Source: a virus. Taken from it: DNA of 43,580 nucleotides. Positions 14,730 to 40,332 of this stretch are shown here, piece by piece. Position numbers and translations under genes: made by a program. Under the pieces are notes generated by a model, which was given only the letters and a program-made list of their open reading frames with translations, did not search any database and had not been told where the DNA came from. Numbering within the stretch: the stretch's first letter is position 1; every line of letters begins with the position of its first letter. The DNA is taken from positions 1-43,580 of IMG/VR virus record IMGVR_UViG_3300031539_000090; one strand, written 5' to 3'.

Positions 14730-14741
14730 GAAAGTCTCGTA

Positions 14742-15059: not shown

Positions 15060-15119
15060 ATGAAAATTCGAGGCATATTAGTCTCGATAATAATTGGGTT
15101 ACTTTTGCCTGGGGGGGCA

Positions 15120-17633: not shown

Positions 17634-17908
17634 AGAAAGAACAAAAAGCGAGCTTATATATCTTATTTTACTTACTATTCTTGGGATTATGGTTCTTCGG
17701 AGTTTACGACTATATTTGGGAAAAATACCAAATTCATCGACTAACACCAGATTTAAGAATAAATATCATCGGCCTTGATAAACCGGAACTTGATAAGAGA
17801 TATTATCATTTCGTTACAGATTACACCGAAAGCGGATTGCCGTTAAAAGGCGGAGTTGGCTTTACTAAGGAAGAATATGATGCTACGAGGTTAAGGAATG
17901 ATAATTAA
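17630..17908 (+). CDS. Membrane protein, 92 aa
   Basis: After a basic KKEQK start a long hydrophobic segment (SLYILFYLLFLGLWFFGVY) spans the membrane once; the rest is polar with a beta-like end. It overlaps both neighbours by a few bases and lies between the two copies of the 119-bp repeat, so it would be lost by recombination between them. No family is recognised. Confidence 0.6.
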   Translation: MKKEQKASLYILFYLLFLGLWFFGVYDYIWEKYQIHRLTPDLRINIIGLDKPELDKRYYHFVTDYTESGLPLKGGVGFTKEEYDATRLRNDN

Positions 17909-18003
17909 GACACTTATCAAAATATCTTTTGTTTTGTTTATCGCCTGCCTTTTATTTTGGTTAGTTTATTTCATTGGTTTGGATTCCGAGCCAAACGAAC
18001 CGA
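17885..18003 (+). repeat. 119-bp direct repeat, copy 2 (shared membrane anchor)
   Basis: This is the second identical copy of 17129-17247. The upstream flank differs (CT versus GA), and the downstream coding sequence is unrelated to that after copy 1. Perfect identity indicates a recent duplication or ongoing homogenisation. Confidence 0.95.
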
Positions 18004-18440
18004 ACGAAACAAAGATTCATGGCAAGCCCGGTTGGTATGGCGAACCAAATCTTAGCCAAGACATGAGATTTAATTGTTATTGTGGCCAAAAAGTATGGAT
18101 AAATTCTATGTGTATTTATCCTATTGATCGCGATTACCCCCTAAATTCTGAACCATATTTATATAAATGTCCTAAATGTGGACGGATTTGGATATTAAAC
18201 AAAAGCATGATCTGGTGGTTGGACACAACTTCGCCAGGTCTATTGAACAGAGCGAGAACGGACGAAAATTTGAAAAAAGCATTATTGATAGTCAATCCTA
18301 ACATTAAGTGTTTTCACGAATTGCTCGAAACAGATTATAGTGTGACACCGGGGGAAAATAAGTGTATTAAATGTGGTAAAGTTTACAGTGATGGCGATGG
18401 AAGGTTACTACGTGTCGACCCGAACAAGGTTAAGGAATGA
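17898..18440 (+). CDS. Membrane-anchored zinc-ribbon protein (copy 2 of shared anchor), 180 aa
   Basis: The N-terminal anchor and NEPNE linker are the same as in the gene at 17142. The exported part contains CYCGQ, then CPKCGRIW and CIKCGKVY, suggesting two zinc ribbons or disulfide knuckles outside the membrane, with an intervening helical part. The C-terminal DPNKVKE is junction-encoded. This pairing of one anchor with two different external domains suggests domain shuffling. The function is unknown. Confidence 0.65.
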   Translation: MIIKTLIKISFVLFIACLLFWLVYFIGLDSEPNEPNETKIHGKPGWYGEPNLSQDMRFNCYCGQKVWINSMCIYPIDRDYPLNSEPYLYKCPKCGRIWILNKSMIWWLDTTSPGLLNRARTDENLKKALLIVNPNIKCFHELLETDYSVTPGENKCIKCGKVYSDGDGRLLRVDPNKVKE

Positions 18441-23842: not shown

Positions 23843-24304
23843 ATGGGTGCAGAGACTAATTTAGGCGTATTCAGTGAAAGTCAGGTCATTAACAGCACTG
23901 AAGCGTCCACAAAAGATATAGATTTGGCAATGACTCGCCATCAAATCGGCGTTGGCGTTCCAATCTATATTTGTGTTCGTGTTGCGATAGCTTTTACAGG
24001 CGCTACGAGTGTGGCTATCGCAATGGAAAACGACACCGATTCTGCTTACGGAAGCGCTGTCACGTTCCCCCTTCGGGCTGCTATCGAGTTGGCCGACGGA
24101 CTTTCAACGCTTGGCCAATGGCTTTACAGGGGAACGCTGCCGTATGAATTAACAGAGACGTATTTACAGCTCAAATATACTTTGGTCGGTGCCGAAACTG
24201 TCGGCGCGGTCGATGCGTGGCTGAGTTTACTGCCGCCTTCGGATATTGGCGCTAACGCTCAGGTATGGGCTTCCAATGTAGGCGATCCGGCGGCCCCGGC
24301 ATAA
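23843..24304 (+). CDS. Capsid cement protein (Bbp16-like)
   Basis: The 153-aa beta-rich protein has the pattern of Bbp16-family cement proteins: N-terminal FSESQVINSTEASTKDIDL, then VAIAFTGATSVAIAMENDTDSAYGSA, and a C-terminal LPYELTETYLQLKYTLVGAETVGAVDAWLSL. Such proteins bind the capsid surface at the local axes and strengthen the shell. AAAGGAGG lies nine bases before the ATG. Directly downstream comes the giant solenoid gene. Confidence 0.85.
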   Translation: MGAETNLGVFSESQVINSTEASTKDIDLAMTRHQIGVGVPIYICVRVAIAFTGATSVAIAMENDTDSAYGSAVTFPLRAAIELADGLSTLGQWLYRGTLPYELTETYLQLKYTLVGAETVGAVDAWLSLLPPSDIGANAQVWASNVGDPAAPA

Positions 24305-24318
24305 GAAAGGAGATAAGC

Positions 24319-27300
24319 ATGAAAAAGTTAATACTAATAACGATTATGGCCGTTCTTGCCTTCTCTACTCTTGCCGGTGCGGCCTTGACGTACGGCCCTG
24401 AATACTACAGGAAGCGCATTTCAAATGCGGGTTCGGGCTATGCGGACAGCGACCCCGTTTATCTTTTTATGAATGAGGTCGATGAGAACTTAATAAGTTC
24501 GGGCGGGGCGGCGAGTGTCTTGTTCACGCCCGGCACAGCACCTACCGGCGCAGAGGGTCTGGTCTATTACGATGATGCTTCGGACACCTTGATGCTCTAT
24601 TCAGGCGCATCCGGGCCTTGGAAGACTATAGACCTTGCTGGTGCATCAAATCTGGATACGGCCTACAACAACGGAAACACTATAACTGTCGATGGAGACG
24701 CCTTAACTTTTACGGCGGGTGCCGGTACGAATAACGGCGTACTTACGTTAGTCCAGTCGAATACGGGAGCTTATGAAGGTTTGAAGATTACCAATGCCGG
24801 AACTGACCCATCCATTGAGATTGACGGTTCGGGTACTGGTGACGACATTACAGGGACTGGTGATACCTGGACTATTTCAGAGGCAGGTGTCGGTAGTTTT
24901 GTCGGTTTAATCTCAGGTGCTTCCGATATTGTCATGGAGAACTCCGACATCTTCTCGAACGGCACCAATAATACCTTTACGTTCGCCGGTAACGAAGCAA
25001 CTGTCGAAGATTTAAGTATCGGACTTGGTGTAAATACTAATATTGTTACGCTTTCGTCCAGTACCGGTGCTACAACCATAGACTGGGGTGCGATGACGAC
25101 CGCTTCCGGTATGACGACTATCACCGGCGACGCCGCTATCTTTACAATCGGCTCGACGGGCACTTCTGCCGGACATGATGTGATTATTCAACAGGCGGGA
25201 GTTACGGATCAACAGTTGGTTCTCCAGTCATCGGGTAATGCGACAAATGCTCTGAGACTTCTCGCTTCTGCTGCCGGTATTGATATAGACGCTACGGGCA
25301 GTACACTGACTATCACCAATACAGCCGACGGTGCCGACGACGATATTACTATCGAGCAGGACGGAGATCAAAACGCTTCTATCATCTTAACTTCCGATGG
25401 TACGGGCGGCGATGCTATCAGTCTTATCTCATCGTCTGCCACGGGTGATATTAAAGTGGCTTCCGCCGACGAGATAGACATTGACGCTGCATCCACTATT
25501 GATATTGCCATAGCGGGTTTAGCTACTCAGGACTTTATAGTCACCAATACCGGCGGCTCTATTATTATGACCGCCACTGAGGATATTGCGGATGGTATCT
25601 ATCTTCATTCTACTACCGGTGGAATAGATATTGTTGCCGACGGCGCAGCAGCCAAAGACCTTGACCTGACCTGTACGAACGGTTCGGTCATCGTTACGGC
25701 AGGCGAGGCTAATTCCGATGCAATTAAACTCAACGCGAGTGCCGGAGGCGTCAATATAGATGCCCTTGCCGCTTACGATGTGGATATTGCAGGCGGTCAG
25801 GTCTTGATTTCTTCCTTAGACAATGCCGCAAGTGCAATTGCTCTGACAACGAATGTGAATACCTTGGAGACTATTGTCGTCACCAATACCAAAGGAACGG
25901 CAGCAGGCGCAATTACCCTTACCGCAACGGCGGGAGGTGTCGATATTGATGCTGCCGCTGCTAAGGAAATCAATATTGCCGGCGGTAACGTGGCGATTGT
26001 CAATAAGACGGCTGGCGCAACGGCTATTACGGCGATAACCAACGTAGATACTACCGACCAGATAGTCGTTACCAATACCAAAGGCACTAATGAAGCGGCC
26101 ATTGATATTACCGCAACGGCTGGCGGTATCGACATTGACGCCGCTGCCGGTAAAAACGTAGCAATTAACGGCGGTCAAATTCTCATCGAATCGGAAGATG
26201 ATGGAGCAAGTTCCATTCAGTTAAAGACCAACACAGGCAATACCGAGACTATCGTAATTCTCAATAGTCAGGGCGCCGGTGACGACTCTATTAATATTGA
26301 CTCTACCGCAGGCGGTTTGGACGTCGATGTTGCCAAAAGTTTGGCACTTACTTCAAGTGAAGGCGCTCTCGATTCGGTAGTTATCACATCGACCAACGGC
26401 GGTATTGACTTAATTACTACCGGAGCCGTTGCCACGGAAGACATTGACATTACAAGTAGTGCGAGTGTCAATATCACTTCTGCGGAAAACATTGCTGCTG
26501 CGATTGTAATTGCAACAACAGGCGGCGGAGGAGCGGCCGAAACGATTGATATTACCAATAATCAGGGTATTACTTCTTCATTAACGACTGAGACGGATGC
26601 TGCGATTCAACTCGAAGCTACTGTCGGCGGTATTGGTTTGTATTCGGGTTTGAGCGGCGCCGATGCTATCCGCTTAGAGACCGCCGGTGCGGCCGCGCAA
26701 ATGACTTTGCAGGCCATTGCCGGTGTAGGCGCTTCCGCTACCGGAGAAGAAGATGCCGCCATTCAACTTTATGCCCAGGCCGGTGGTATTGGTCTGGCTT
26801 CGGGTCTTGCTGCTGCTGATGCTATTCGCATCGAAGCCCAAGGTGCTAACGGTCAAATAACGATACAGAACAAGTTAGGTATAACCGCTTCTTCTGCAAC
26901 GCAGTTCGACGCATCTATTCAGCTTTACAGCGAGGCAGGCGGTATTGGCTTGCATTCAAAACTGAACGGGGCGGATGCTATCCGTATCGAGGAAGGCGGT
27001 GGTACTGGAGGTACTATCAATATCCACGCCAATACGGGTAACGCCGTTGCCGATGGAGCCGCTTCTATCAATCTTTTGAGCGATGTTGGCGGTATCGGTC
27101 TTAAAGCGACGGGACTGGCAAGTGCTAATGCAATCTGGATTCAGGCTGCCGCAGGCGGTGTTAATATTGACGCTCAGGCAGCTTACGATGTCGATATTGA
27201 CGGGGGTCAGATTTTCCTTACCTCATCTCATAACGTACCGGATGCCATCAAGATTCATTCTGATTCAGGTGCGAATGCGAACATAAACATTCTCAACGAT

Positions 27301-29658
27301 GAATGTACGGGCACGGAAGCAATTACGATTACATCAACTCTTGGCGGTATTGACGTTGACGCCCATGAAGATATAAATATTACTCTTCACGCCGAGAGCG
27401 CCGATGAGGATATTATCCTTTTGACAACCGGAACATCGGATAGTCATATCTCGATTACAGCAGACGGTTCTGACGACAATGCCTTGGCGCTTATTGCAAG
27501 TGTGGCGGGTATCGACATAGACGCTGCCGGCGTACTGACGATGGATGCCGACGACGATATGACGATTACCGTAGCGGCAGAGTCCGATGAGGACTTGACT
27601 ATCCAGTTGCAGAACAATGTCGATGCAAGCATTTTAATTAGCTCTGCGGGAAGCGGAACGGATTCGCTCAGTCTTACAACGGTGACAAACGGCGGCGATA
27701 TTGTTATCAGCTCCAACGACAAAATAGATATGGATTCGACGGGTACGTTTGCCCTGAATGCGGCCGGAGATACCTTGCTGATTCAGGTGGATTCCGACGG
27801 CGCAGACGATGATTTAACTATCAAAGTCGATGGCGATGATGATTCCTCTATCATTCTTGACAGCGACGGTTCCGGCGCCGATGCGATTAGTTTACAGGCT
27901 TCTCATGCAACGACAGGCGGTATTGACGTTGATTTCAAGTCGGGTAACTTTACTCTTACCGGCTCAGGAGCAAGCGCCGATGTAATCGTAGACTGCGACC
28001 TTTTCAGTATAGACGGTACAGGTTCGGCTAATATCACTGTTGCCGCAACTGAAGCCGGTGAAGACCTTACTATCAGTCAAACCGGTACGAATGCTTCGAG
28101 TGTTGAAATTGTATCATCGGGCCGATGTGCGGATGGGATTAAATTGCATTCCAATGGTGATGCAACTTCCGGTATTTACATACATTCTCAAACCGGAACC
28201 GCTGCATCGACAGCGACTGAATCTGATGCCGCTATTCAGCTTTATAGTCAAGTCGGTGGTATAGGTCTTCTGTCGGCTCTTAACGCCGATGATTCTATCA
28301 GGATTGAGACAAACGGCGGCGACGATGAGAATATCACGATACGCGCCAATCAGGGAACCGGAACCGACTCGATTTATATATTGAGCGATGAAGGCGGTAT
28401 CGAGATTGAGGCGACCGCAAGTACGGCGGCAGGCGCAGGGGCATCTGCCGTTCAATTGACCGCTTCGTTGGGTGCTATTGAATTGACTTCGGGATTAGAT
28501 GCTACCAATGCGATTAAGTTGACTGCCAATGGTAATACAAACTCTGATATTAACATCTGGAACGATACCGGTAGTACATCAGATTCGATTAAAATATTAA
28601 GCGACCTTGGCGGTATTGCCGTTACAGCGAGTGACGATGCGATTGTGTTGACGGCAGACGGCGCTACTGTAGGCGATATTACTATTGACGGCGAGAATAA
28701 GGTCACGATTGTTTCAGCCGACCTCGATGCCGAAGGTATTTACATCCACGAGAATTCGACAAGCGGTACGGCCGGCTCGATAAAGATTCATGCCGATAAA
28801 GGTATTGCTGAAGCTACCGGAGCATCTTCGGTAACGCTTCTTAGCGACGTTGGCGGTATCAATTTGAAAGCGGCGGCCTTAACGAGCGAGAGTTCGATTT
28901 GGATTGAGTCCATTGCCGGTGGTGTTAATATAGATGCCGCCGCCGGTAAAGACGTCGATATTGACGGCGGGCAGATTCTTCTCGAAGCCAACCACGATAT
29001 AGCCAGTGCAATTTCCTTAATTACCAATACCGGTACATCCGAGACCATTGTAATTACTAATACTTTAGGCAATGCGACGGGTGCAATCACCTTAGAAGCG
29101 ACTGCCGGAGGTATTTCACTTAGTGCTTTATCTGGAATGGACTTCGGAGAAGGTGCCGTTGTCAATGTTGGCGATATTTCGGTTGATGATGTTATCGCCG
29201 ATGCCAACGACAACGTAGTTCTCAGTGCGGTCAAGATGCTTGTGGTTTCGATTTCCGTCGATGACGATCCCGCTACCGATTTCCAGTATGACAATACTCA
29301 GGAGAACAAAGTAGAACAAGGTATAAGGGTTGGCAGAATTCCAGCCAATTGCATGATTAACTCTGTATTTGTTTTATGTACCGAGACTATTACGGCTGGA
29401 GGTCAATTTGCCACTGAGATTGGTACTGCTACTGGAGGCGATCAGATTTTAACTACTTCGGATTGTGATACCGCTGATGACATTATGGGCACGGCAGCCG
29501 CAGAGATACCGGAAATAGCTGTTACCGGCTCCATTATAGATGTTTACGTTAGTGGCACTCCGACTACAAATGACTTTGATGAAATAACGGCAGGTAGTTG
29601 GGACGTTTGCATCGTCTACACGGATTACGCCGCTGCATTAGCGCAGACGGGTACTTAA
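24319..29658 (+). CDS. Giant secreted beta-solenoid repeat protein, 1779 aa
   Basis: AAGGAGATAAGC precedes the ATG at 24319. A classical signal peptide (Lys-Lys start, hydrophobic core, TLAGA cleavage site near residue 21) is followed by a 100-residue entry domain. Then come about 1500 residues of Asp/Ile/Thr/Gly/Ala repeats with recurring units such as TAGGVDIDAAA, AINGGQILIE, TIVVTNTKG and AAIQLYAQAGGIGL. This is a long right-handed beta-solenoid with turns dominated by Asn/Asp/Gly. The last 160 residues form a separate non-repetitive domain (from NVVLSAVKMLVVSI). The gene lies in the head/tail region, so it is probably a virion surface or fibre-like protein, yet it has an export signal. 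A long fibre, decoration or host-surface protein are all possible. Confidence 0.8.
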   Translation: MKKLILITIMAVLAFSTLAGAALTYGPEYYRKRISNAGSGYADSDPVYLFMNEVDENLISSGGAASVLFTPGTAPTGAEGLVYYDDASDTLMLYSGASGPWKTIDLAGASNLDTAYNNGNTITVDGDALTFTAGAGTNNGVLTLVQSNTGAYEGLKITNAGTDPSIEIDGSGTGDDITGTGDTWTISEAGVGSFVGLISGASDIVMENSDIFSNGTNNTFTFAGNEATVEDLSIGLGVNTNIVTLSSSTGATTIDWGAMTTASGMTTITGDAAIFTIGSTGTSAGHDVIIQQAGVTDQQLVLQSSGNATNALRLLASAAGIDIDATGSTLTITNTADGADDDITIEQDGDQNASIILTSDGTGGDAISLISSSATGDIKVASADEIDIDAASTIDIAIAGLATQDFIVTNTGGSIIMTATEDIADGIYLHSTTGGIDIVADGAAAKDLDLTCTNGSVIVTAGEANSDAIKLNASAGGVNIDALAAYDVDIAGGQVLISSLDNAASAIALTTNVNTLETIVVTNTKGTAAGAITLTATAGGVDIDAAAAKEINIAGGNVAIVNKTAGATAITAITNVDTTDQIVVTNTKGTNEAAIDITATAGGIDIDAAAGKNVAINGGQILIESEDDGASSIQLKTNTGNTETIVILNSQGAGDDSINIDSTAGGLDVDVAKSLALTSSEGALDSVVITSTNGGIDLITTGAVATEDIDITSSASVNITSAENIAAAIVIATTGGGGAAETIDITNNQGITSSLTTETDAAIQLEATVGGIGLYSGLSGADAIRLETAGAAAQMTLQAIAGVGASATGEEDAAIQLYAQAGGIGLASGLAAADAIRIEAQGANGQITIQNKLGITASSATQFDASIQLYSEAGGIGLHSKLNGADAIRIEEGGGTGGTINIHANTGNAVADGAASINLLSDVGGIGLKATGLASANAIWIQAAAGGVNIDAQAAYDVDIDGGQIFLTSSHNVPDAIKIHSDSGANANINILNDECTGTEAITITSTLGGIDVDAHEDINITLHAESADEDIILLTTGTSDSHISITADGSDDNALALIASVAGIDIDAAGVLTMDADDDMTITVAAESDEDLTIQLQNNVDASILISSAGSGTDSLSLTTVTNGGDIVISSNDKIDMDSTGTFALNAAGDTLLIQVDSDGADDDLTIKVDGDDDSSIILDSDGSGADAISLQASHATTGGIDVDFKSGNFTLTGSGASADVIVDCDLFSIDGTGSANITVAATEAGEDLTISQTGTNASSVEIVSSGRCADGIKLHSNGDATSGIYIHSQTGTAASTATESDAAIQLYSQVGGIGLLSALNADDSIRIETNGGDDENITIRANQGTGTDSIYILSDEGGIEIEATASTAAGAGASAVQLTASLGAIELTSGLDATNAIKLTANGNTNSDINIWNDTGSTSDSIKILSDLGGIAVTASDDAIVLTADGATVGDITIDGENKVTIVSADLDAEGIYIHENSTSGTAGSIKIHADKGIAEATGASSVTLLSDVGGINLKAAALTSESSIWIESIAGGVNIDAAAGKDVDIDGGQILLEANHDIASAISLITNTGTSETIVITNTLGNATGAITLEATAGGISLSALSGMDFGEGAVVNVGDISVDDVIADANDNVVLSAVKMLVVSISVDDDPATDFQYDNTQENKVEQGIRVGRIPANCMINSVFVLCTETITAGGQFATEIGTATGGDQILTTSDCDTADDIMGTAAAEIPEIAVTGSIIDVYVSGTPTTNDFDEITAGSWDVCIVYTDYAAALAQTGT

Positions 29659-29673
29659 TAGAAAGGAAAGACT

Positions 29674-29955
29674 ATGAAAGAATGGAAAACTATTGTGGTA
29701 GTGGTTCTTATCGCACTGCTCGTTGCAGCATTGGTCTTTATGGCCGCAGACAAGAACCAGACGAACGCAGCGCCTGAAGAAGTGGCGTTGTCTAATTTGA
29801 AAGAACGAATAGGGCAGTTGAAAGTCCTGAAAGAAGAACAGACTTTGACGCGGGACATTATGGTGATTCAGCAGCAAATAAGAGACCTTAGCGCCGTTGC
29901 TCCGATTCAATCTGTAATTCCGAAAGAGCGACTGCCGGAAGAATTACAGGAATGA
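29674..29955 (+). CDS. Membrane-anchored coiled-coil protein, 93 aa
   Basis: After MKEWK a hydrophobic helix (TIVVVVLIALLVAALVFMAA) spans the inner membrane; the exported remainder is a coiled coil (LSNLKERIGQLKVLKEEQ) with a Pro-rich end. This is the layout of an i-spanin or of a membrane tether. It directly follows the giant exported solenoid gene (15 bp gap), so a membrane partner for it is conceivable. AGAAAGGAAAGACT precedes the ATG. The function is inferred from shape only. Confidence 0.65.
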   Translation: MKEWKTIVVVVLIALLVAALVFMAADKNQTNAAPEEVALSNLKERIGQLKVLKEEQTLTRDIMVIQQQIRDLSAVAPIQSVIPKERLPEELQE

Positions 29956-30020
29956 CTATGGATACATGGTTTTCCTTCGGGATGGGAGGGGGTCGAAAGA
30001 CCCTCCCTATCCTTATTTAA
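29952..30020 (+). CDS. Possible 22-aa peptide
   Basis: The ORF starts in an ATGA overlap with the preceding stop and encodes MTMDTWFSFGMGGGRKTLPI plus two residues. Short Gly-rich peptides are found between virion genes of podoviruses. Its second half is encoded by a strong hairpin, which weakens the case. Confidence 0.35.
   Translation: MTMDTWFSFGMGGGRKTLPILI
29984..30007 (+). terminator. GAAA-tetraloop hairpin between tail genes
   Basis: GGGAGGGGGTC, GAAA and GACCCTCCC form a strong stem with a GNRA-type loop and a two-base bulge. A short T-containing stretch (TATCCTTATTT) follows, so it may be a weak terminator or an mRNA processing/stability element. The next gene starts 22 bases later with TTAAGGAG. 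Confidence 0.5.
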
Positions 30021-30029
30021 GGAGTAAAG

Positions 30030-30389
30030 ATGCAGACTGTAAGAAAAGTCAGTTTAGACCAGCAGAGTTGGGATTCGGGCGCGAGCGAAAAGGCTACGAC
30101 TTACAGGAAAGTCAATGGTAAGTGCGAGCAGATAGCGGTCAAAATCAGTGTGAACACGAACACCGTAGCTGGCAAAGTTTCTATATATGATTCCAACGGC
30201 GGTAAGCTCTACGAAAAGACGAGCATCCCGACCGGAACGACTACTATCTATTACGGCAATAGTTTAGGCTCGACTGACTGTGACTTCAAATCCTTCCTCT
30301 GCGACGGCAAATTGACGGTAGAAATAACACCTGACGGCGATCCCGGCACTACGGGCGTGAAGATAGATGTTGACCTTTATGTGAGGTAA
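30030..30389 (+). CDS. Probable virion beta-sandwich protein, 119 aa
   Basis: AAGGAGTAAAG precedes the ATG. The 119-residue protein is beta-rich with no signal peptide (KVSIYDSNGGKLYEKTSIPTG; KLTVEITPDGDPGTTGVKIDVDLYV). It resembles small phage structural or decoration proteins. Located among tail/fibre genes, it may be a tail or fibre component. No named family. Confidence 0.6.
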   Translation: MQTVRKVSLDQQSWDSGASEKATTYRKVNGKCEQIAVKISVNTNTVAGKVSIYDSNGGKLYEKTSIPTGTTTIYYGNSLGSTDCDFKSFLCDGKLTVEITPDGDPGTTGVKIDVDLYVR

Positions 30390-30392
30390 AAG

Positions 30393-30800
30393 ATGAGACG
30401 CTTTACGTGCTTTTTACTTTTATGCGCCTTGAGCGGAACGGCTTTAGGCGGGTCGATATGTCCGTTTACGACAATCTTCATGCGTACTTTGTTAGATGAT
30501 GCAACGGCTTCGGCGGCGAGAACGACTTTGGGACTTGGTACGACTGATTCTCCGACGTTTGTGAAAGTCACGTTATCCGGCAATGAAATCAACGTAGCTA
30601 CGTCGCAGATACCGAGTTCGGCAACTGCGGCGGGAAATGCCGGTGATATTGCGTGGGGGTCGGATTATATCTATATATGCGTGGCCGGTAATACGTGGAA
30701 ACGGTCGGCCTTGACTACATGGGGCGGTCTACCGGAAAACGTAATCTTTGCCGGAGAAAACGTCATTTTTGCCGGAGAACAAGTTATATATTATCCATAA
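30393..30800 (+). CDS. Secreted tail-fibre-like protein, 135 aa
   Basis: A signal peptide (basic MRRF, hydrophobic core, ALGG) is followed by MRTLLDDATASAARTTLGLG, a sequence typical of phage tail-fibre shafts, and by GDIAWGSDYIYICVAGNTWKR, another recurrent fibre segment. The C-terminus holds a short tandem repeat (ENVIFAG, ENVIFAG, EQVIYY) made by duplicated DNA near 30737-30785. Tail-fibre homologues are normally cytoplasmic, so the signal is unexpected. Confidence 0.65.
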   Translation: MRRFTCFLLLCALSGTALGGSICPFTTIFMRTLLDDATASAARTTLGLGTTDSPTFVKVTLSGNEINVATSQIPSSATAAGNAGDIAWGSDYIYICVAGNTWKRSALTTWGGLPENVIFAGENVIFAGEQVIYYP

Positions 30801-30809
30801 GGAACGATT

Positions 30810-31784
30810 ATGAAAAAGCTATTGATTTTACTCATATTGTTAATGTTTTCAGCAACAGTCTTAGCAGACCTTACAGGAACGGAAGGTCTTGCGATTGACC
30901 TTTCAAGCGCAGGAGCCGGGACTGATATTACTATTGCCTTCGACCCTACCGAGCTTTTAGGAAACCGTACATGGGGTGACGCTTCTACCGATACGATAGT
31001 CTGGACGTGGAACAAGGCCACGGGGACAGACCCTACGATTACCTTTAACAGCGGTTCGATAGCCTTACCGGCCTTGACATTAGTTACGCCATTGGCCCTG
31101 AATTACGGCGGGGCCGGGGCGGACATTTCAGGCTGGTCGGGGATTGTTGCTGTTTCCGGTGGGTCTGCCGTAGAAGTAGACACATTTGCGGAGATTGATA
31201 CGCAAATTGCCGACAAAGCCCTTGTGAATAAAGCCGATGGTGCGGTGTGGCTCGGCATACATGATTACGGAGGGGCGGATTTGGAACTACCTCAAGCATC
31301 ACCCGCCGTTCCCGGCGTGGATGGTGGCATTGAGATTGACTTCACAGACGGCACGGTAGTCATTCAGCACGGAGCGGCACATGCCGAATTAGCGGCTTCC
31401 ACTGACGTTGTGATAGGTAAGCTCATAAAGTCATGGTCTGGTACAATCTTCGAGCCTGATAATGTGAACGATGTACTGACCGTCAAGGCAATCAATTCTA
31501 TCCAGTATCCTCACGGTGTTGTTATTACAGCCGTTTATCTCGGCGTCTCATCGGATACGGGATACGTATTAACAGTCCAGAATTTCGACGACTTTGATAC
31601 GATAAACGCTGCGAACGGGACGATAGACACAGTGACTTATTCCGCCGATACGACGGGAGAAATCATAGATACGACACCAACATACGCAACGATAGCGGCG
31701 GGGCAGATAATTATGATTAGCATTCCGGCTACAGATGTGGACTGGATACATTTTGAGATTTATTACTACGAACCGGCGGCATAA
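30810..31784 (+). CDS. Secreted tail/fibre-like protein, 324 aa
   Basis: The start follows AAGGAACGATT. Residues 1-19 are a clear signal peptide (Lys-Lys, Leu/Ile core, cleavage near VLA-D). Then come a Gly/Thr/Ala/Asp-rich beta part with phage-fibre-like phrases (TWNKATGTDPTITFNSGSIA, LNYGGAGADISGW) and a C-terminal beta-sandwich (KLIKSWSGTIFEPDNVN, then DVDWIHFEIYYYE). It is probably a distal tail or fibre component. The family is not named. Confidence 0.65.
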   Translation: MKKLLILLILLMFSATVLADLTGTEGLAIDLSSAGAGTDITIAFDPTELLGNRTWGDASTDTIVWTWNKATGTDPTITFNSGSIALPALTLVTPLALNYGGAGADISGWSGIVAVSGGSAVEVDTFAEIDTQIADKALVNKADGAVWLGIHDYGGADLELPQASPAVPGVDGGIEIDFTDGTVVIQHGAAHAELAASTDVVIGKLIKSWSGTIFEPDNVNDVLTVKAINSIQYPHGVVITAVYLGVSSDTGYVLTVQNFDDFDTINAANGTIDTVTYSADTTGEIIDTTPTYATIAAGQIIMISIPATDVDWIHFEIYYYEPAA

Positions 31785-31799
31785 ATGGGGGTTATTAAA

Positions 31800-32606
31800 A
31801 TGAAACGATTACTGATTCTTTATTTTGTATTTTGTATTCTGTGTTCTGTTTCTTTGGGCGATAACGACTTTGGGGATGTTAACTGTGTCGCTCTTTGGAG
31901 ACTTGAGAACGGAGCGCTTACGGTCGATTCAAAAGGCGGCAACACCCTTACAAATGACGCAGTTGTGGCAGATGCAGTAAATTATAAAGAAGGGGAAGCG
32001 TCTGGAGACTTTGAGTGGAGTTCGTCGGCCTTTATGACCATAGCTGACGCTGATCTTGATGCCGGATTTCCTCTCAAGGATGGCGATTCAACAAAAAAAA
32101 TATCTGTATGTGCTTGGATTATGCCGGAAAGTTTACCTACCGAAGGTTGCTTTTTTGCAAAATGGGACCATGCTGGTTTGAAAAGGCAATTGCAAATACT
32201 ACAACTTGGAAGCCCTAGCGATATAAGAGTTTATATAGGTTATAATGGCGGTGTATCCTATGAAGAAGTAGTTACACTCAATACGAACATGGTCGTTAAC
32301 CAGTGGTATCACATCGGTTTTACATTTCAAGATTCAGACAAATCATGGCGTCTTCGCGTTTGGGACGAGTCTGGCGAAAGTGTGATGGAGGATACTGGCA
32401 ATACGATAAATAATATAAACATAGAAGATTCATTTTTTACGTTAGGTTGTGTATCGGATGGGATAAATCATTTTGATGGCCGCATAGATGAGGTGGTGGT
32501 TTTTAATGATATTCTAACTTCTGATGAAATCGACCAGATAAGGGTAGGCACTTACGGAGTTGCTGCCGGTGGCGGTGGTCAGGTGATAATCATATATGAA
32601 GACTAA
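31800..32606 (+). CDS. Secreted LamG/concanavalin-like protein, 268 aa
   Basis: The start at 31800 has a G-run nine bases upstream (an earlier in-frame ATG at 31785 is that G-run's own codon). A signal peptide (MKRLLILYFVF core, cleavage near SLG-D) is followed by a LamG-type jelly roll: VALWRLENGALTVDSKGGNTLT, KKISVCAWIMPES, WYHIGFTFQDSDKSWRLRVW and FDGRIDEVVVFNDILTSDEI. LamG domains bind glycans or proteins at cell surfaces, so a receptor-binding role is reasonable. Confidence 0.82.
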   Translation: MKRLLILYFVFCILCSVSLGDNDFGDVNCVALWRLENGALTVDSKGGNTLTNDAVVADAVNYKEGEASGDFEWSSSAFMTIADADLDAGFPLKDGDSTKKISVCAWIMPESLPTEGCFFAKWDHAGLKRQLQILQLGSPSDIRVYIGYNGGVSYEEVVTLNTNMVVNQWYHIGFTFQDSDKSWRLRVWDESGESVMEDTGNTINNINIEDSFFTLGCVSDGINHFDGRIDEVVVFNDILTSDEIDQIRVGTYGVAAGGGGQVIIIYED

Positions 32607-33591
32607 AATTATAATGTGTTCTATATTCTTCGTTTTGTGTTCTGCTGTGCAGGGAGCTAATGAAATCTGCGCCGTCGCGCCGGGCATTACAAACGCTTAT
32701 GGCGTCGTAAGAGAACCGGATGGCGATGTCTGGTACGTCACAGGGCAGGTTTTCGAGGTGTGGGGAACGGGTGCTCGAACGGCTGCGGATTACGACATTG
32801 CATTGGTGGACAAGTCGGGCGGTATGTTAGTTGGGGATATGGATACGAGTATTTCAGCCGGATACTATCACATAATAACACATTATCGGGTGGGTGCTAA
32901 TCCCGCCGATACCGACCCTGCCGTGTGGCAGGAATACGGATACTGGAGCGGAACGGTTTGGCAACCCTATACACTAAAGACTATCGAAGATAAAGTTGAT
33001 GATTTACCAACCGCTGCCGGGACAGCCGATGCCGTATGGGACGAGGCTATGGCCGGACATACTGGCGAGGCCACTTTCGGCGGTGAATTACAAACACTCG
33101 ACCCGAACCTTACTTTGGTATTGGCGGATACGGCCGAGCTTCAAACCGACTGGCACGATGGCGGGCGGCTCGACCTTCTAATAGACGCTATTAAGGCGGA
33201 GACCGACCTAATAACTATCCATTCGACTACGGTAGCCGAGGCCAACGATGCCAACGAATTCATTCTGACTGATGGTATAGGTACAGATGTTAACGATTCC
33301 TGGAACTATTCGGTGATTATCATTCAGGACGCCGACGACGGCCACTGGGAATCGAGATTCATTTACGAATGGGACAGCGATAAGGAAGTTGAAGTCGATG
33401 AGACTCTTGGCTTCATTCCGGCGGCGGGTGACGTTGTTCATATCATGGGGACTGGATACGGGGGATTTTTGTACCGGATACTTTCGACCATTCAGCAGGC
33501 AAGAGGCGTTCTGAATGTTATTGATACTACGGGAACTTCAAGAGCGGTTGGGGGCGTAACTCGAATAGACGCTATGGGTGACGACCCGTGA
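32596..33591 (+). CDS. Secreted tail-fibre/baseplate-like protein, 331 aa
   Basis: The protein starts with a signal peptide (KTKIIMCSIFFVLCSAVQG). After a beta domain it has AVWDEAMAGHTGEATFGGEL and DWHDGGRLDLLIDAI, a pattern I know from phage fibre and adaptor proteins where a helical segment trimerises. The C-terminal region (YSVIIIQDADDGHWESRFI, GYGGFLYRILSTIQQARG) is typical of phage structural proteins that carry beta domains. The start overlaps the previous gene's end, with only a weak ribosome site. Confidence 0.7.
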   Translation: MKTKIIMCSIFFVLCSAVQGANEICAVAPGITNAYGVVREPDGDVWYVTGQVFEVWGTGARTAADYDIALVDKSGGMLVGDMDTSISAGYYHIITHYRVGANPADTDPAVWQEYGYWSGTVWQPYTLKTIEDKVDDLPTAAGTADAVWDEAMAGHTGEATFGGELQTLDPNLTLVLADTAELQTDWHDGGRLDLLIDAIKAETDLITIHSTTVAEANDANEFILTDGIGTDVNDSWNYSVIIIQDADDGHWESRFIYEWDSDKEVEVDETLGFIPAAGDVVHIMGTGYGGFLYRILSTIQQARGVLNVIDTTGTSRAVGGVTRIDAMGDDP

Positions 33592-33610
33592 CACAATTCC
33601 TGGGGGGATT

Positions 33611-34486
33611 ATGGCGGATAATGAAGAAAAACGGGCCTTATGCAACAGGGCGATAACAATTCTAACTGCCGGTATGACCGCTCAGGCGGGGATTCTCCAT
33701 ACAGAGATAACCGATGAGCAGTTCGCCGACTATACTTCGGTAACGACCGACCAACAGATAAAGCTTTTATGCTTTTTGTACGAGCCGGTCTTATTGAAGG
33801 TCATTCTCGATATTCAGCCGGACTTCGCTAAACAGTTCGCAGACTTGGGGAATGAGATTTGTATCAATAAAGAGGTAGGCGACTGGGGACTTCTATTCGA
33901 GTTGCCGAGTAACTTTATAGAAGATGAAAATGCGTTAATTGCCCAAATCAGTCAGGCCAATAGGAAAACTAAATATGACTGCAAGATTCTGACTTTCGAC
34001 GGTTACGCCCATGTCGTTAAGGGTACGGACGAACAGTCGTGGTATTGTAAGACCGACCATACGGCGGCGGCGGCCAATAAACCGATTACCGGTGCAGATT
34101 ACGCAACCTATTGGACTCTCTATAATACCGACGACTCTTACGGTGCTGATTGGGTATCTGGATGGTCTTACAAAGCCTCTCAGGACGGCAAATTATTAGC
34201 GGCCAATTCCTATTCCAATCTTGATGGTGACAGTGCGTATATAGAGTATCTCGCCTACATTCAGGCCGGTATTTCCGACAAGCCCGCGTATTATCCCAAT
34301 GCCTTTAAGAACGCCTTCTGTACGAGACTTGCAGCTGAGATGGCGGAGGATGGTCACGATTACGAGCGCAGAAGAAAACTTATGGAGGAATACGAGTTAA
34401 TTGCCAAGCCGCGGGTGTGGCAGGTTCAGAACAGGAACGATTTCGAGGAAACAAGACCGACATTTTTAGAGTCAAGGACGATATGA
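33611..34486 (+). CDS. Tail tubular protein A-like (gp11-type) with inserted domain
   Basis: GGGGGG lies just before the ATG at 33611 (a GTG at 33578 is inside the previous gene). The first 120 residues follow the tail-tube A pattern (LCNRAITILTAG, LCFLYEPVLLKVILDIQPDFAKQF, WGLLFELPSNFI) that forms the ring below the portal. Residues 130-190 are an inserted segment with YAHVVKGTDEQSWYCKTDH, similar to carbohydrate-binding-like inserts in phage proteins. The C-terminal helix (NAFKNAFCTRLAAEMAEDG) is conserved in the family. It has no signal peptide, unlike its neighbours. Confidence 0.78.
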   Translation: MADNEEKRALCNRAITILTAGMTAQAGILHTEITDEQFADYTSVTTDQQIKLLCFLYEPVLLKVILDIQPDFAKQFADLGNEICINKEVGDWGLLFELPSNFIEDENALIAQISQANRKTKYDCKILTFDGYAHVVKGTDEQSWYCKTDHTAAAANKPITGADYATYWTLYNTDDSYGADWVSGWSYKASQDGKLLAANSYSNLDGDSAYIEYLAYIQAGISDKPAYYPNAFKNAFCTRLAAEMAEDGHDYERRRKLMEEYELIAKPRVWQVQNRNDFEETRPTFLESRTI

Positions 34487-37011
34487 TGAAAAGGTTCATA
34501 CTTATATTTATATTCTGTACGGCAGCGATGGGCGCGAGCCTTACGCAAACAATTTCTCTCAATAGTTTCAACGCCGGTGAACTCTCGCCTCTTATGAACG
34601 CACGGGTGGACTATCCGAAATATAAACTCGGCGCAAAGACTTTAGAGAACATGATAGTAAGGGCGCAAGGGCCAATATCGAGGAGGCCGGGCACTAAATA
34701 CATCGCTTCGGTAAAAGACGATACGGACGCTACAAGACTGATTCCCTTCGAGTATTCGACTATCTACGCCTATATTGAAGAAGTAGGCGACAAATACGCG
34801 AGGTTCTACCGTACCGTTGATGGTGTAGCCGGTCCGATTGTAACTACTTATTCTGCATGGGCCACATCCACGGCTTACAGTGTAGGTGCGTTAGTGACAC
34901 ACAGCGGTTACTATCGGTGTTTGGTAGCCCATACATCAGATGATTGGGATACCGATTTAACTGCCGTCAAATGGGCAGTAACCGCCGGGGCTACCGATCT
35001 TGCCTACGAGATAGTCACACCGTGGGACGAAAGCGACGTCTTTGAGCTTCAATTCTGTCAGGATGCCGAGACGATGAGAATTGTCCATCCCGACTACGAA
35101 CCCTACAAACTCACGAGGACTGGTCATACCTCATGGACGTGCACGCCGATAAACTCTACCACCGGCCCTTTTCTCGATGAGAATAACGATACTACGTGGA
35201 CTCTGACATCAAATAAGACTACGGGTACGGGCGCTACTATTACTTCAACGGACGACCTTTTCTTGCCCGACCCAAACTACGTAGGTGCGTTGTTTCAAAT
35301 AAGTCATTCCCTTGCCGCCGGTTCGGTAACGAAGTTATTTTGGTCGTCTGGTGATTCAACTTCGGATTCGATTACAGTCCAGAAGTACCGGTACTACGAT
35401 GTCATTACAAGCGGTTCATGGGCGGGCACTTTCAAAATACAAAGGTCTTACGGTGACGATGTTTGGGAGGATGTCTACAGTATCCGCTATACGTATAACG
35501 GGAATATCCAATATTCCGGGCAGGAACTTGAAAAGACCTGCCTTTACCGAATGAAAATGGTAGACCAGTATTTAACAAGCCACAACCTACGGCATTACGA
35601 GGGTATGTGCTACGGCAATTTTAACGCTCGCGGCTTTATGAATAACGGAGTGGTCGAGATAACCAGTGTTACGAATACGAAGGTCGCTACTGCCGATATA
35701 AAGATAGCTATAGGAGCGGCCGATACTACTACTTATCACTGGTCGGAGGGTGCATGGAGCAATTACCGGGGCTGGCCGAGGACGGTCGAGCATCACGAGC
35801 AGAGAGTCATTTACGGCGGCTCAGCATCTTATCCCCAGGCTATATGGGCCTCTATTATAGCGACTCAGGACTCCGATTACGATGACTTCACTGCCAATAC
35901 CGAATCCGATTCCACAGGGAATTTAGGAGGCCCGGATGATATTGCGTGGACATATACATTGCCGGGCATGAATCCAATTCAATGGATGAAGTCAACCGAA
36001 TATTTAATGATAGGCACGACTTCGGGGGTAGGGAAATTAGGCCAGCCGGACAAACCAATTACTCCCAACTTCCCCCCGACTTTTCGTATCCAGAACCATA
36101 ACGGGTGCGCTTATATTCAGCCGAAAGGCGCGGTTGACGCCCTTCTCTACATAGAGAGGGGCGGTCAGAAAGTCAGGGAACTCGCCTTTGCATACTCTTC
36201 AGATAAATACGAAGCGCCTGATATGACCGTCTTGGCCGAGCACATAACAGGCGATGGCATAGTCGAGATAGATTTTCAGAACCGGCCGGAACCTATCTTA
36301 TGGTGCATCAGGGAAGATGGTCAGTTGCTTTCATTCACCTATCACAGAAAGCACGATGTCCTTGCGTGGTCGAGGAACGATACGGGCATTGCAGACAAGT
36401 TCAAATCGGTAGCGGTGATACCCGGTACTAACGAGGACGAACTTTGGGCGATAGTTGACAGGACGGTAGATACTTACGTTGAGCAGTTCCAGCCGTGGGA
36501 CTGGGGGACAGACCAGAACGACTGCTACTTTGTGGATTGTGCGGTCGATGATATAACGAATTTGATTCATATCGAGGGCGAGACGGTCGCTCTATTTGCG
36601 GACGGCCGGCCGATAGGCACTTACACGGTCTCAGGAGGCGAGATAAGTCCATCGGGTAGTTATACCTATACTACAGTGGGGCTTCCTTATACATCCGTTT
36701 TCGAGACAATGCCGCTTACAGCCTCATCGAGTCATGGTTATATAAACGCAGAATATACAAGGATAGCATCTCTCATTGTTGACTTTTACAAGACTTTAGG
36801 CTGTCACATAGGCCCGGATGCAACCAATACCCACGATTTCAAGTTCTCCAACGATTCTTTCGCCACGACTTTGGATGTTGTAACAGACTTTAAGGTGTCA
36901 CCGTATCTGTGGGGAACGAAACGGTCGCCGACAATCTATTTTCAGGAATCCGATCCTATCCCTCTGACTATCAGGGGCGTTTATCCGAGAGTTATAGTAA
37001 GTTATGATTAA
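34483..37011 (+). CDS. Tail tubular protein B-like with N-terminal signal peptide, 842 aa
   Basis: AAGGA lies five bases before the ATG at 34483, whose codons begin a signal-like peptide (MKRFILIFIFCTAAMGA). Directly after it comes the usual beginning of this tail-tube/nozzle family: ISLNSFNAGELSPLMNARVDYPKYKLGAKTLENM and QGPISRRPGTKYIA. Near residue 130 there is a carbohydrate-binding-like insert (AYSVGALVTHSGYYRCLVAH). The centre has LGGPDDIAWTYTLPGMNPIQWM and the conserved YLMIGTTSG. Residues about 624-842 are duplicated in the next gene. The protein forms the lower part of the tail tube. The family assignment is good; the signal peptide is the odd part. Confidence 0.85.
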   Translation: MMKRFILIFIFCTAAMGASLTQTISLNSFNAGELSPLMNARVDYPKYKLGAKTLENMIVRAQGPISRRPGTKYIASVKDDTDATRLIPFEYSTIYAYIEEVGDKYARFYRTVDGVAGPIVTTYSAWATSTAYSVGALVTHSGYYRCLVAHTSDDWDTDLTAVKWAVTAGATDLAYEIVTPWDESDVFELQFCQDAETMRIVHPDYEPYKLTRTGHTSWTCTPINSTTGPFLDENNDTTWTLTSNKTTGTGATITSTDDLFLPDPNYVGALFQISHSLAAGSVTKLFWSSGDSTSDSITVQKYRYYDVITSGSWAGTFKIQRSYGDDVWEDVYSIRYTYNGNIQYSGQELEKTCLYRMKMVDQYLTSHNLRHYEGMCYGNFNARGFMNNGVVEITSVTNTKVATADIKIAIGAADTTTYHWSEGAWSNYRGWPRTVEHHEQRVIYGGSASYPQAIWASIIATQDSDYDDFTANTESDSTGNLGGPDDIAWTYTLPGMNPIQWMKSTEYLMIGTTSGVGKLGQPDKPITPNFPPTFRIQNHNGCAYIQPKGAVDALLYIERGGQKVRELAFAYSSDKYEAPDMTVLAEHITGDGIVEIDFQNRPEPILWCIREDGQLLSFTYHRKHDVLAWSRNDTGIADKFKSVAVIPGTNEDELWAIVDRTVDTYVEQFQPWDWGTDQNDCYFVDCAVDDITNLIHIEGETVALFADGRPIGTYTVSGGEISPSGSYTYTTVGLPYTSVFETMPLTASSSHGYINAEYTRIASLIVDFYKTLGCHIGPDATNTHDFKFSNDSFATTLDVVTDFKVSPYLWGTKRSPTIYFQESDPIPLTIRGVYPRVIVSYD

Positions 37012-39502
37012 ACTACTTATAATATTATTTTTATGCCTAACACCTGAGCAGAAAGCGTGGGAAAACATTCAGTTACCTAACGATTCCGTTCTTGCATGGT
37101 CGCGCCATAAGACGGGATACAATCAGGATGATAAGTTTCTTTCCGTAGCGACTATTCCCGGATCAGGTGGAGAGGATGAGGTCTGGGTGATAGTCGAAAG
37201 GACTATAGATGGTGTAAAGCAAGTCAATGTCGAGCAATTCCAGCCCCGCGACTTCGGAGACCAGAACAATGCTTGGTTTGTCGATTGTGGCTTAGTGGGA
37301 TGGAGCGATGGCGGTGGTGGGTTAATTAACATAATTGAACCTACCGATGATGTTACGGTGGGCGAATATCCGACTTTGCAGGAACTTACTGACGATGAGA
37401 TACCTGATACCCCGGCAGAGCCGGAAGATACGGCGCTTGTCGGAGCAACGAACGTCAATGATTACGCCGGATTACAGGCTATGACCGGATCAGGTCATTA
37501 TAATATCACTGGCGATATAGATTTGGAAGGTGAAACGTGGATTCCGATAGATGATTTCAGTGGGGTTATAGAAGGTAATGGTTTTACAATTTCAAATTTA
37601 ACTCATACCGCAGAAGCATCGGCATTCGATACCGGCATGTTCAATAATCTACTTTCCGGCGCGGAAATACGCAATTTGACATTGAAAGATTTTGCCATTA
37701 CAGGTGATTTTGGGACGGGTGCTTTGGCAGGTAACGGAGTTGGGGATATTGTAATTAAAGATGTTAATGTAACAGGTTGCACAATTGAGGGTTATTGCTA
37801 TCTTGGTGCACTCGTTGGTTTTCTGGAAGAAATAACTTCCGGTGGTATTTATGATTGTGATGCAATTGATTGTACTATATCGGGTACGGACTGGTCAGGC
37901 GGCTTGTGTGGATATATTGAAATTGATAACGATGCAACAGATGACTTTAATATTGTCAACTGTAGTGTTGCTGACGGCACTCTTACAGTATTGGATGGTA
38001 CTTATTGCGGTGGCTTGGTCGGTTCGGGAGAGGGAACAATCCATACTACCCCGGATAGATATATCACTTTTCATACATGCAGTTCCTCTATGAACATAAT
38101 AGTAGGGGACACAGATGAAGCGCAGTCTCTTGGCGGATTTATTGGCCTTGCAGACTGGTGCGATTTCATCAGTTGTTCCGCAACAGGTAATATAGATTAT
38201 ATAGGTTCAGATAGTGGCGGCATTCCTTATGGAATAGGCGGTTTTGTCGGATTTGAAACAGGCGTAGGCACGTATATAAATTGCTATTCAACCGGCGATA
38301 TAACAATGGACGCAGAAAACTTTTCTCTAATGCAGCTCATTGGAGGCTTTGTCGGAAAATGCGACCAGACAGCAACTCAGATATTTACTCGATGCTATTC
38401 AACTGGTGATATTACTATGACAAATGTTGGCAGTATGTCATGGCATGGAGTTGGTGGTTTTATGGGAGGCTATCTTGGTACTGGCGGAACAATTAGAAGA
38501 TGCTGGTCTGAAGGCGATATTAGTTTAGACGACGAAGGAGTGCCGGGAGTAACATACAAAGGCGGACTTGGAAGTTTTATAGGCATGATATGGCATAGCG
38601 ATACCGGGGCAGGAACAATCGAAAATTGCTATGCCTGGGGCAGTATAACAATCGAGACACTGAACGAGAACGATGATGATTTGGGCGTTAGCGGCTTTTT
38701 GGGAAGTATAGCAAAATTAGGGACATACACATTGACGAATTGCTACGATGCCCAGACCGATACGGCGACAGGTTCGGGATATACAAGTCAAATCCCAACG
38801 GGAGATTATTCCAAAGGTTTGGTCGGATGGCTTACGACGTCTGTTACTGTAACCGATACTGCAATATTCTGGGATACAGAGACATCAGGTATAGACGAAG
38901 ATGATTATGCCGTTGGCCATATAACGACATGGATGCAGACACAGGCGAACTACGAGGCCGCCGGTTGGGACTTCGATACGATATGGGTTTTGGATGAAGT
39001 GACTACCCCTGGCGAGCCTGGCGACAGCGAACCTAATACATGGAGCGGCATGGATCATGCTATTGGTATGGAAGTATGTGTTTACGCCGATGGCCGACCG
39101 ATAGGAGTTTATACTGTAGATGCCAACGGTGTCTTGGATTTAGGTGCGGAATACGAGACTGTAATAGCCGGTATAAACTATTATTCAACTTATGAGTCTT
39201 TTCCCTTAGTCACGGAGACCAACTTCGGTTTGAGTACCGGCCAGCAGGCGAGGATAATGGATATTACAATAGACTTCTACGAGTCTTTAGGCTGTCACGT
39301 GGGGGTTGACAGGACTAACAGTACCGACTGGATTTTTAGTAAAGACGATTTCGCAACGAGGATCGACCTTGTGACCGAATACAAAAAAGGTTCTTTCCTG
39401 TGGGGCACTACGCGCGAGCCGATAGTCTATTTGTGGGAATGGGAGCCTGTGCCTCTAACCGTGAGGGCAATATATCCGAAAATGGGGGTAACAAGTGATT
39501 AA
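37004..39502 (+). CDS. Tail-tube B C-terminal paralogue with inserted GLUG-repeat adhesin domain, 832 aa
   Basis: After a short hydrophobic start (IKLLIILFLCL) residues 28-103 align with the C-terminal part of the preceding protein (VLAWSRHKTGY, KFLSVATIPG, VNVEQFQPRDF, FVDCG). Residues about 683-832 match its end (YADGRPIGVYTV, ITIDFYESLGCHVG, WGTTREPIVYL, PLTVRAIYP). Between them lies a region of about 580 residues of repeated GGFVG-type and CYSTGDIT units, which is the GLUG-motif beta-helix of bacterial adhesins. The gene looks like a duplicate of the tail-tube tip that captured an adhesin module; receptor binding is likely. It overlaps both neighbours by eight bases. Confidence 0.8.
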   Translation: MIKLLIILFLCLTPEQKAWENIQLPNDSVLAWSRHKTGYNQDDKFLSVATIPGSGGEDEVWVIVERTIDGVKQVNVEQFQPRDFGDQNNAWFVDCGLVGWSDGGGGLINIIEPTDDVTVGEYPTLQELTDDEIPDTPAEPEDTALVGATNVNDYAGLQAMTGSGHYNITGDIDLEGETWIPIDDFSGVIEGNGFTISNLTHTAEASAFDTGMFNNLLSGAEIRNLTLKDFAITGDFGTGALAGNGVGDIVIKDVNVTGCTIEGYCYLGALVGFLEEITSGGIYDCDAIDCTISGTDWSGGLCGYIEIDNDATDDFNIVNCSVADGTLTVLDGTYCGGLVGSGEGTIHTTPDRYITFHTCSSSMNIIVGDTDEAQSLGGFIGLADWCDFISCSATGNIDYIGSDSGGIPYGIGGFVGFETGVGTYINCYSTGDITMDAENFSLMQLIGGFVGKCDQTATQIFTRCYSTGDITMTNVGSMSWHGVGGFMGGYLGTGGTIRRCWSEGDISLDDEGVPGVTYKGGLGSFIGMIWHSDTGAGTIENCYAWGSITIETLNENDDDLGVSGFLGSIAKLGTYTLTNCYDAQTDTATGSGYTSQIPTGDYSKGLVGWLTTSVTVTDTAIFWDTETSGIDEDDYAVGHITTWMQTQANYEAAGWDFDTIWVLDEVTTPGEPGDSEPNTWSGMDHAIGMEVCVYADGRPIGVYTVDANGVLDLGAEYETVIAGINYYSTYESFPLVTETNFGLSTGQQARIMDITIDFYESLGCHVGVDRTNSTDWIFSKDDFATRIDLVTEYKKGSFLWGTTREPIVYLWEWEPVPLTVRAIYPKMGVTSD

Positions 39503-39851
39503 ATTAAAACCATATCTACCGACAGACGCCGTGATTTTGACCGGCGACAGGATGTGCGCCGAATTAGCCCAATTGAATCAAATATCAGGGCCGGGCTTTA
39601 CCTTATGTGACGGTAACAGGCCTTTGGCTTCAGGCGGTGTGAGGATATACGGGGTAGCCGAGGCGTGGTTCGTACTCGGCGATGAGGCTAAGGAAAAGTA
39701 CCTTTTGATGGTAATGCGTAAGATTAAAAAAGAGTTAGAGAAAATCCAGCGTCGAGAGAAACTTTATAAAATCTACGCCGAGGATACGAAGAGCGAGAAT
39801 TTCCTTCAGCATCTGAGATTCGTAAAGAAGAACAATATATTCGTGAGGTAA
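39495..39851 (+). CDS. Internal virion protein gp13-like (acetyltransferase-like fold)
   Basis: The 118-aa protein has the layout of T7 gp13-like internal virion proteins: PTDAVILTGDRMCAELAQLN, then FTLCDGNRPLASGGVRIY, GVAEAWFVLGDEAKE and a long helix. The strands and AWFVLG segment recall a GNAT acetyltransferase fold, but a clear catalytic site is not visible. In relatives the protein helps assembly of the internal core. It overlaps the previous stop by eight bases. Confidence 0.75.
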   Translation: MIKLKPYLPTDAVILTGDRMCAELAQLNQISGPGFTLCDGNRPLASGGVRIYGVAEAWFVLGDEAKEKYLLMVMRKIKKELEKIQRREKLYKIYAEDTKSENFLQHLRFVKKNNIFVR

Positions 39852-39855: not shown

Positions 39856-40332
39856 ATGGCGTTAGCAACAGCCGGAATGATGATCGCCGGTACGGGCATG
39901 GGCGTGGCGGGTTCTATCATGCAGGGCAGGGAAGTCAACAGGCAGGCCAGAGACGCCGCCCGTGAGAGGCTATATGAGGCCGCCGTACTTAAAACAGCGG
40001 CGGGCGAAAAAGCACACGGACTCGCACAGGAGCGGTCTTATGCAATGGGTTCGGCAAGGGCCACTGCTGCAAAAGCCGGTGTCAAAGGTACGGGTTCTGT
40101 AAAGACCCAAAGGAATCGAATATCCGCGATGTACACACAGAAAATAGCGAATATGGGTTTGGAGACGGGCCATAGGATAGGCTTTTTGGAACGGGAGGCC
40201 GAAGAACTCAAACGCAGGGGCAGGAGTGCAAAAAGGGCTGGTTATTGGGGTGCGGGTGCAAGTCTATTAAGCGGTGGTGCTCAATTCGGAAGTACATTTA
40301 AATCCGGCGGCGGCAAACTATTATTCCGGTAA
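39856..40332 (+). CDS. Internal virion protein gp14-like
   Basis: The 158-aa protein has an N-terminal Gly/Ala/Met-rich helix (ATAGMMIAGTGMGVAGSIMQ) followed by a helical Arg/Ala-rich body (REVNRQARDAARERLYEAAV) and a Gly-rich end (GYWGAGASLLSGGAQFGS). This matches gp14-type core/ejection proteins that insert into the outer membrane on infection. Position after the gp13-like gene and before the gp15-like gene supports it. A start at 39856 follows GAGGTAATAAG. Confidence 0.8.
   Translation: MALATAGMMIAGTGMGVAGSIMQGREVNRQARDAARERLYEAAVLKTAAGEKAHGLAQERSYAMGSARATAAKAGVKGTGSVKTQRNRISAMYTQKIANMGLETGHRIGFLEREAEELKRRGRSAKRAGYWGAGASLLSGGAQFGSTFKSGGGKLLFR

Follow-up and report, generated by a model that had tools for sequence, protein, structure and literature searches.

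A partial nozzle paralog with an adhesin-like GLUG insert in a T7-like phage locus

In the T7 nozzle, the fibre dock joins the propeller to the platform and lies on the outer surface, and the N-terminus of the protein supplies three strands of the platform (PMC6702177). Changes of host recognition in phages are generally ascribed to the exchange of fibres, spikes or their tips; here we describe a locus in which the nozzle itself would serve as the mount, since a partial paralog of it, encoded directly behind the full-length gene, bears a large adhesin-like domain in one loop. The locus lies in the 43,580-base IMG/VR virus record IMGVR_UViG_3300031539_000090, which was analysed at its full length and is called the window below; the studied region is 100% identical within the 56,108-base record IMGVR_UViG_3300031565_000040.

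The nozzle gene A and its partial paralog B

The genes follow a T7-like order, running from a 302-aa protein in the adaptor position (33578-34486) through the nozzle (A) and its partial paralog (B) to a gene with a weak phrog_308 match and a gp14-like gene of phrog_418. B overlaps its neighbors by 8 nt at both ends (37004-37011 for the A/B overlap), and no B-like gene is found between the nozzle and the next virion gene in T7 and phage vir555. The features of the region are:

34483..37011, + strand: gene A, full-length T7-gp12-like tail nozzle (tail tubular protein B), by phrog_376, 8CK1_A and T7 gp12 fold
36352..36549, + strand: A, end of the propeller up to FVDC, counterpart of the B N-terminal flank
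36562..37008, + strand: A, C-terminal platform module, counterpart of the B C-terminal flank
37004..39502, + strand: gene B, 832 aa, partial nozzle paralog with adhesin-like insert, its start overlapping the A end
37004..37081, + strand: B, hydrophobic leader of ~26 residues (MIKLLIILFLCL...), from the sequence
37082..37291, + strand: B, N-terminal flank, end-of-propeller module ending WFVDCG, by homology to A
37292..39055, + strand: B, insert of ~587 residues (linker, predicted GLUG beta-helix, linker), by comparison with A
~37361..37390, + strand: N-side linker motif (EYPTLQELTDDEIP...) shared with L007, L010 and L011
37391..38758, + strand: predicted GLUG right-handed beta-helix, B residues ~130-585 (PF07581; AF2 pLDDT mostly 80-98)
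38930..38986, + strand: C-side motif WMQTQANYEAAGWDFDTIW of the GLUG cassette, nearly identical in L005 and similar in L114 and L116
39056..39499, + strand: B, C-terminal flank, platform module, by homology and structure match
39495..39851, + strand: post-B gene, weak match to the phrog_308 internal virion protein, overlapping the B end
39856..40332, + strand: gp14-like internal virion protein (phrog_418), flanking marker of the T7-like order (cf. T7, vir555)

Gene A matches phrog_376 over positions 6-708 of 712 (E=3e-154), that is, over its full length including the propeller and both parts of the platform. Its solved sequence relatives are the nozzles of Carin1 (8CK1_A, E=2.6e-174) and LME-1 (9EFK); T7 gp12 is matched at the level of the fold, and a profile-to-profile comparison of A with T7 gp12 yielded no alignment. 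The AF2 model of A is poor (pLDDT 52) and was used for the overall fold only. The true start is probably the ATG at 34483, with 34417 being an in-frame upstream GTG. The A protein further contains a CBM_5_12-like stretch (window 34855-34953, residues 147-179 of the ORF from 34417; 2.7e-6) that corresponds to a gap in the alignment of the L007 nozzle and is present in that of L028; it is another insertion point of the nozzle.

The original prediction, that the flanks of the 832-aa protein derive from the C-terminus of the preceding protein split after FVDC, is borne out. A 70-residue piece, B29-97, aligns with A648-711 (E=3e-17, ~60% identity in tblastn) and a 148-residue piece, B685-832, with A718-864 (43% identity, E=2e-38; BLASTP of B 37004-39502 against A 34417-37011), reaching z=32 and z=53, respectively, against 200 shuffles each. 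The insert, whose junction lies directly after FVDC/G, displays no similarity to A in the same kind of comparison (200 shuffles, z=-0.5). The flanks are hence homologous to A's last ~217 residues rather than copies of them: they are diverged paralogs (43-60% identity) whose DNA is alignable only in short stretches, which qualifies the earlier wording of two pieces of the preceding protein. Searched with phrog_376, B gives no match for the nozzle body, only for the end-of-propeller and platform modules. In the AF2 model of B (mean pLDDT 75), the C-terminal module is matched by Foldseek to 9EFK_M and 8CK1_A (E ~1e-6, rmsd 3.5 over ~160 columns) and to T7 (E ~5e-4).

Judged by homology to the solved nozzles and by the published description of T7 (PMC6702177), the module retained in B is the end of the propeller together with the adaptor-adjacent platform. 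Missing from B are the tip of the nozzle, almost the whole propeller and the platform strands contributed by the N-terminus; the notion that it keeps an assembly-competent tip had thus picked the wrong end. Lacking the N-terminal strands that complete the platform barrel of T7, B may not fold as an independent platform. Given the T7 topology, the FVDC loop would therefore lie at the propeller exit, in or beside the position of the fibre dock, a mapping from A to T7 that uses published topology and homology.

The insert scores 26.3 bits against PF07581 (GLUG), above the curated cut-off of 20.5, and 19.3 bits against PF05342 (M26 IgA1 protease N-terminal region), below the curated cut-off of 27.7. 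AF2 confidently predicts a beta-helix within it, in keeping with the proposed loop insertion of an adhesin-type beta-helix. The ~580 residues of GLUG-like repeats first ascribed to it were correct as to GLUG and too generous as to extent, for the helix proper covers only ~455 of the ~587 residues, the remaining insert being linker.

Elsewhere in the window, positions 24265-29658 in the tail region encode a 1797-aa repetitive structural protein with ASGGVDIDA-like repeats and a signal-peptide-like leader, and positions 31785-32606 a 273-aa protein with a Laminin_G_3/ConA-like lectin domain (5.3e-17), possibly another host-binding part. A 119-nt perfect direct repeat (17129-17247 and 17885-18003) places the same membrane-anchor-like N-terminus, MIIKTLIKISFVLFIACLLFWLVYFIGLDSEPNEP, on the otherwise different ORFs 17142-17633 and 17898-18440.

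Relatives of B and of its GLUG insert

We found B-type modules in four loci, L217 included, plus a fragment in L011; all loci are metagenomic. In L007 and L012, as in the window, nozzle A is followed immediately by a B-type gene, and hydrophobic leaders also start these other B-type proteins. The B modules fall into a single clade (100/99) whose sister group is the A modules, which would reflect one ancestral duplication or an equivalent exchange. Since identity among B modules (51-60%) is close to that among A modules (57-60%), the constraint on B is about the same as on the structural copy. The insert is of the GLUG type in the window and L007. In L012, an unrelated 343-348-aa repeat domain sits between flanks 60% identical to those of the window B; it has no credible match among PDB sequences, and we read it, from its sequence repeats only, as perhaps beta-propeller-like. 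L217 encodes a single 1457-aa nozzle. Its body is close to the A bodies, and its C-terminus is a B-type module whose 467-aa insert distantly resembles the one in L012 (E=1e-9). As this nozzle ends in its own B-type module, the module works in a nozzle chain, and the tandem A/B modules and the L217 state would be connected by a deletion between the modules, or the reverse. The L007 B protein (12433-15174) has an extra ~70-residue insert within the platform module, after FLMKSG..., that is absent from the other B proteins; a similar stretch occurs inside the large insert of L217.

A search for other inserts at the same loop, which the original prediction had suggested, proved productive. Among 73 non-redundant nozzle modules, the FVDC loop is shorter than 30 residues in 56, spans 93-105 residues in 14 and exceeds 120 residues only in the three B-type proteins. 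The large inserts of L012 and L217 are other than GLUG. Some of the 93-105-aa inserts are E1_FCCH domains and others are unrelated; 8CK1 has an insert of ~80 residues at the same loop. On these alignments, the FVDC loop is a real insertion site that holds other inserts in relatives.

GLUG domains likewise recur in other tail proteins. L010 has one within an earlier loop of its single full nozzle; L114 and L117 have it in a protein of phrog_31 (central tail fibre J), and L116 in a tail protein assigned to phrog_1101. L005 encodes a 601-aa protein in which the two parts of the 181-aa protein encoded next (62% and 71% identity) flank GLUG; as far as the sequences tell, this is the duplication-plus-GLUG logic of B in an unrelated tail gene. 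Aligned, the cassettes have recurring edges, YPTL(Q/H) on the N-side and WMQTQxNYEAAGWDF-like motifs on the C-side, and L005, L113, L114 and L116 display a shorter YPTL/YPIL version of the N-side linker motif of B. In a tree, the phage cassettes are separated from the bacterial GLUG domains that were sampled, with moderate support (93/81); support is better for each of the two phage groups, the nozzle type (99/99) and the L005/hub type (98/94). A GLUG search of 50,697 phage records returned weak matches only, the L116 cassette hitting one hypothetical protein of a gut phage, and the open-access literature searched contains no description of GLUG domains as recurrent phage tail parts. Genome contigs scanned in the search for a host gave no relative of the B insert; the GLUG alignment picked up generic GLUG proteins of bacteria and archaea only (24-39% identity). 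A host from the phylum of a planctomycete locus was considered and rejected: nozzle A has only six distant matches (30-42% identity) in 392 genomes.

Mounting of B and competing explanations

We consider it fairly probable that B is a virion-associated adhesin or receptor-binding subunit mounted via the duplicated platform module of the nozzle. Here, A would form the standard nozzle ring, and B would arise through translational coupling from the gene that overlaps the end of A. The nozzle-derived halves of B would refold together into an end-of-propeller plus platform module on the outer, adaptor-proximal part of the tail, with the 587-aa insert projecting from the loop at the place of the T7 fibre dock and the GLUG beta-helix facing the cell surface sideways. 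B would be mounted at the junction of nozzle and adaptor, either beside the A platform or replacing it in some protomers; between phages, the scaffold would be kept and the head exchanged. The sequences show the duplication, the point of insertion and its conservation, and the change of insert, with the GLUG fold as a prediction; the incorporation of B into the virion, its exact mounting and orientation and its binding to the host surface are what we infer. The new receptor-binding organ envisaged at the outset might be a fitting description, going by the sequence and the model.

A possible, if doubtful, variant is that B provides an alternative C-terminus: its module would replace that of A in some of the six nozzle protomers by trans complementation, so that the ring would be mixed and contain a fixed number of adhesins. 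Split nozzles speak for it, as they do for the main reading. In L028, the nozzle ORF stops after FVDC and an FCCH-like stretch, and the C-module is found only on the next ORF, a separate lectin-like polypeptide, behind the lectin-like part and an SPSAS linker; an assembly slip is less likely, as a separate small frame occupies the interval between the two ORFs. (L029 is nearly identical, a copy from the same population, and gives no independent support.) In L113, one ORF joins the first ~60 residues of the nozzle to a GLUG domain, and the remainder of the nozzle is encoded by the following ORF, with an ATGA overlap; a third ORF bears another copy of the N-terminal nozzle piece with a different extension, placing the N-terminal strands on two separate ORFs. 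The one without GLUG (6430-6888) is short, lies upstream of the GLUG-bearing N-piece and has a short repeated extension (CYxN/YEN-type). The sequences of L028 and L113 suggest that nozzle pieces can assemble in trans, and in L217 the B module occurs in cis. Against the variant, A in the window has an intact C-module, and swapping is hence not required.

A broader reading, which we put forward only tentatively, is that GLUG cassettes, with their recurring edge motifs, act as mobile plug-ins for host recognition in unrelated short- and long-tailed phages alike and are spliced into surface loops of tail-tip proteins: several nozzle loops, J-like hubs and a small duplicated tail protein. Nozzles would be duplicated in part or split at these points, and adhesin-bearing and plain pieces would join in mixed rings with an adjustable number of adhesins.

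Alternatively, B might be exported by the host Sec system and act at the cell surface or in the periplasm, e.g., in lysis or in superinfection exclusion, and not as part of the virion. Apart from the hydrophobic leader on B and its relatives, signal-peptide-like starts occur on consecutive tail or structural genes, the nozzle included, in the window (24265-39502), L007, L012 and L217. The window ORFs with such starts are those at 24265, 30393, 30810, 32596 and 34483 and, by eye, 31785 and 37004. A simple predictor of our own assigns such leaders to 17 of the 43 genes in the window, L007 and L012, compared with 39 of the 907 genes in 95 further nozzle loci. Leaders of this kind are very unusual on podovirus tail proteins, and a literature search for signal peptides on phage tail proteins found nothing relevant. 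Those on A and B could mean export. However, nozzle A and other tail genes have them as well, so that they do not set B apart; the module kept in B is a nozzle module and in L217 belongs to the nozzle; and structural genes typically occupy the position that B has between the nozzle and the internal virion genes. We thus judge a role outside the virion unlikely.

We hold it to be equally improbable that B is a tailspike-like enzyme degrading surface polysaccharide, with the beta-helix as a lyase or hydrolase. The GLUG part of the B model does match the Sf6, HK620 and Pam1 tailspikes, with which it shares the beta-helix fold (VIA Z 17-19), and also alginate lyases and epimerases. However, beta-helices match one another generically, the best match is the IgA1-protease GLUG beta-helix (Z 24), a noncatalytic part of that enzyme, and in relatives a different domain forms the insert. 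Finally, that B is a decaying duplicate or an assembly artefact, as the metagenomic contig and the absence of most of the nozzle from B might hint, is very improbable given an open frame free of stops with start/stop overlaps at both ends and the same gene, under A-like constraint, in two further independent contigs.

Comparison with described systems

If B is indeed a virion-associated adhesin, a partial nozzle copy would keep the interface and bear an exchangeable head, which in relatives is a different one, is fused into the main nozzle or is split off. These relatives amount to natural experiments that can tell which loops of a nozzle tolerate large domains and whether its pieces assemble in trans. 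Moreover, GLUG domains, known from bacterial surface proteins, emerge as recurrent phage tail parts.

The GLUG adhesins and the N-terminal beta-helix of M26 IgA1 proteases (PF07581, PF05342; 6XJA, 7UVK) share the GLUG motif and the beta-helix fold with B; unlike them, B is without a protease domain and is embedded in a phage tail module. The Sf6, HK620 and Pam1 tailspikes place a beta-helix on a podovirus tail, as proposed for B, attaching via a dedicated head-binding domain where B would use a nozzle module. In the nozzle fibre docks and fibres of T7 and SU10 (PMC6702177, PMC9509320), a surface element near the propeller/platform junction carries the host-recognition parts, whereas here, in place of a docked fibre, a separate chain paralogous to the nozzle has the adhesin-like domain built into its nozzle module. 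Among the T7 gp12-type nozzles (PDB 7EY7/6R21; Carin1 8CK1; LME-1 9EFK; PHROG 376), A is a full member; the flanks of B are homologous to the end-of-propeller and platform parts only, and to these B adds its 587-aa insert with the predicted beta-helix.
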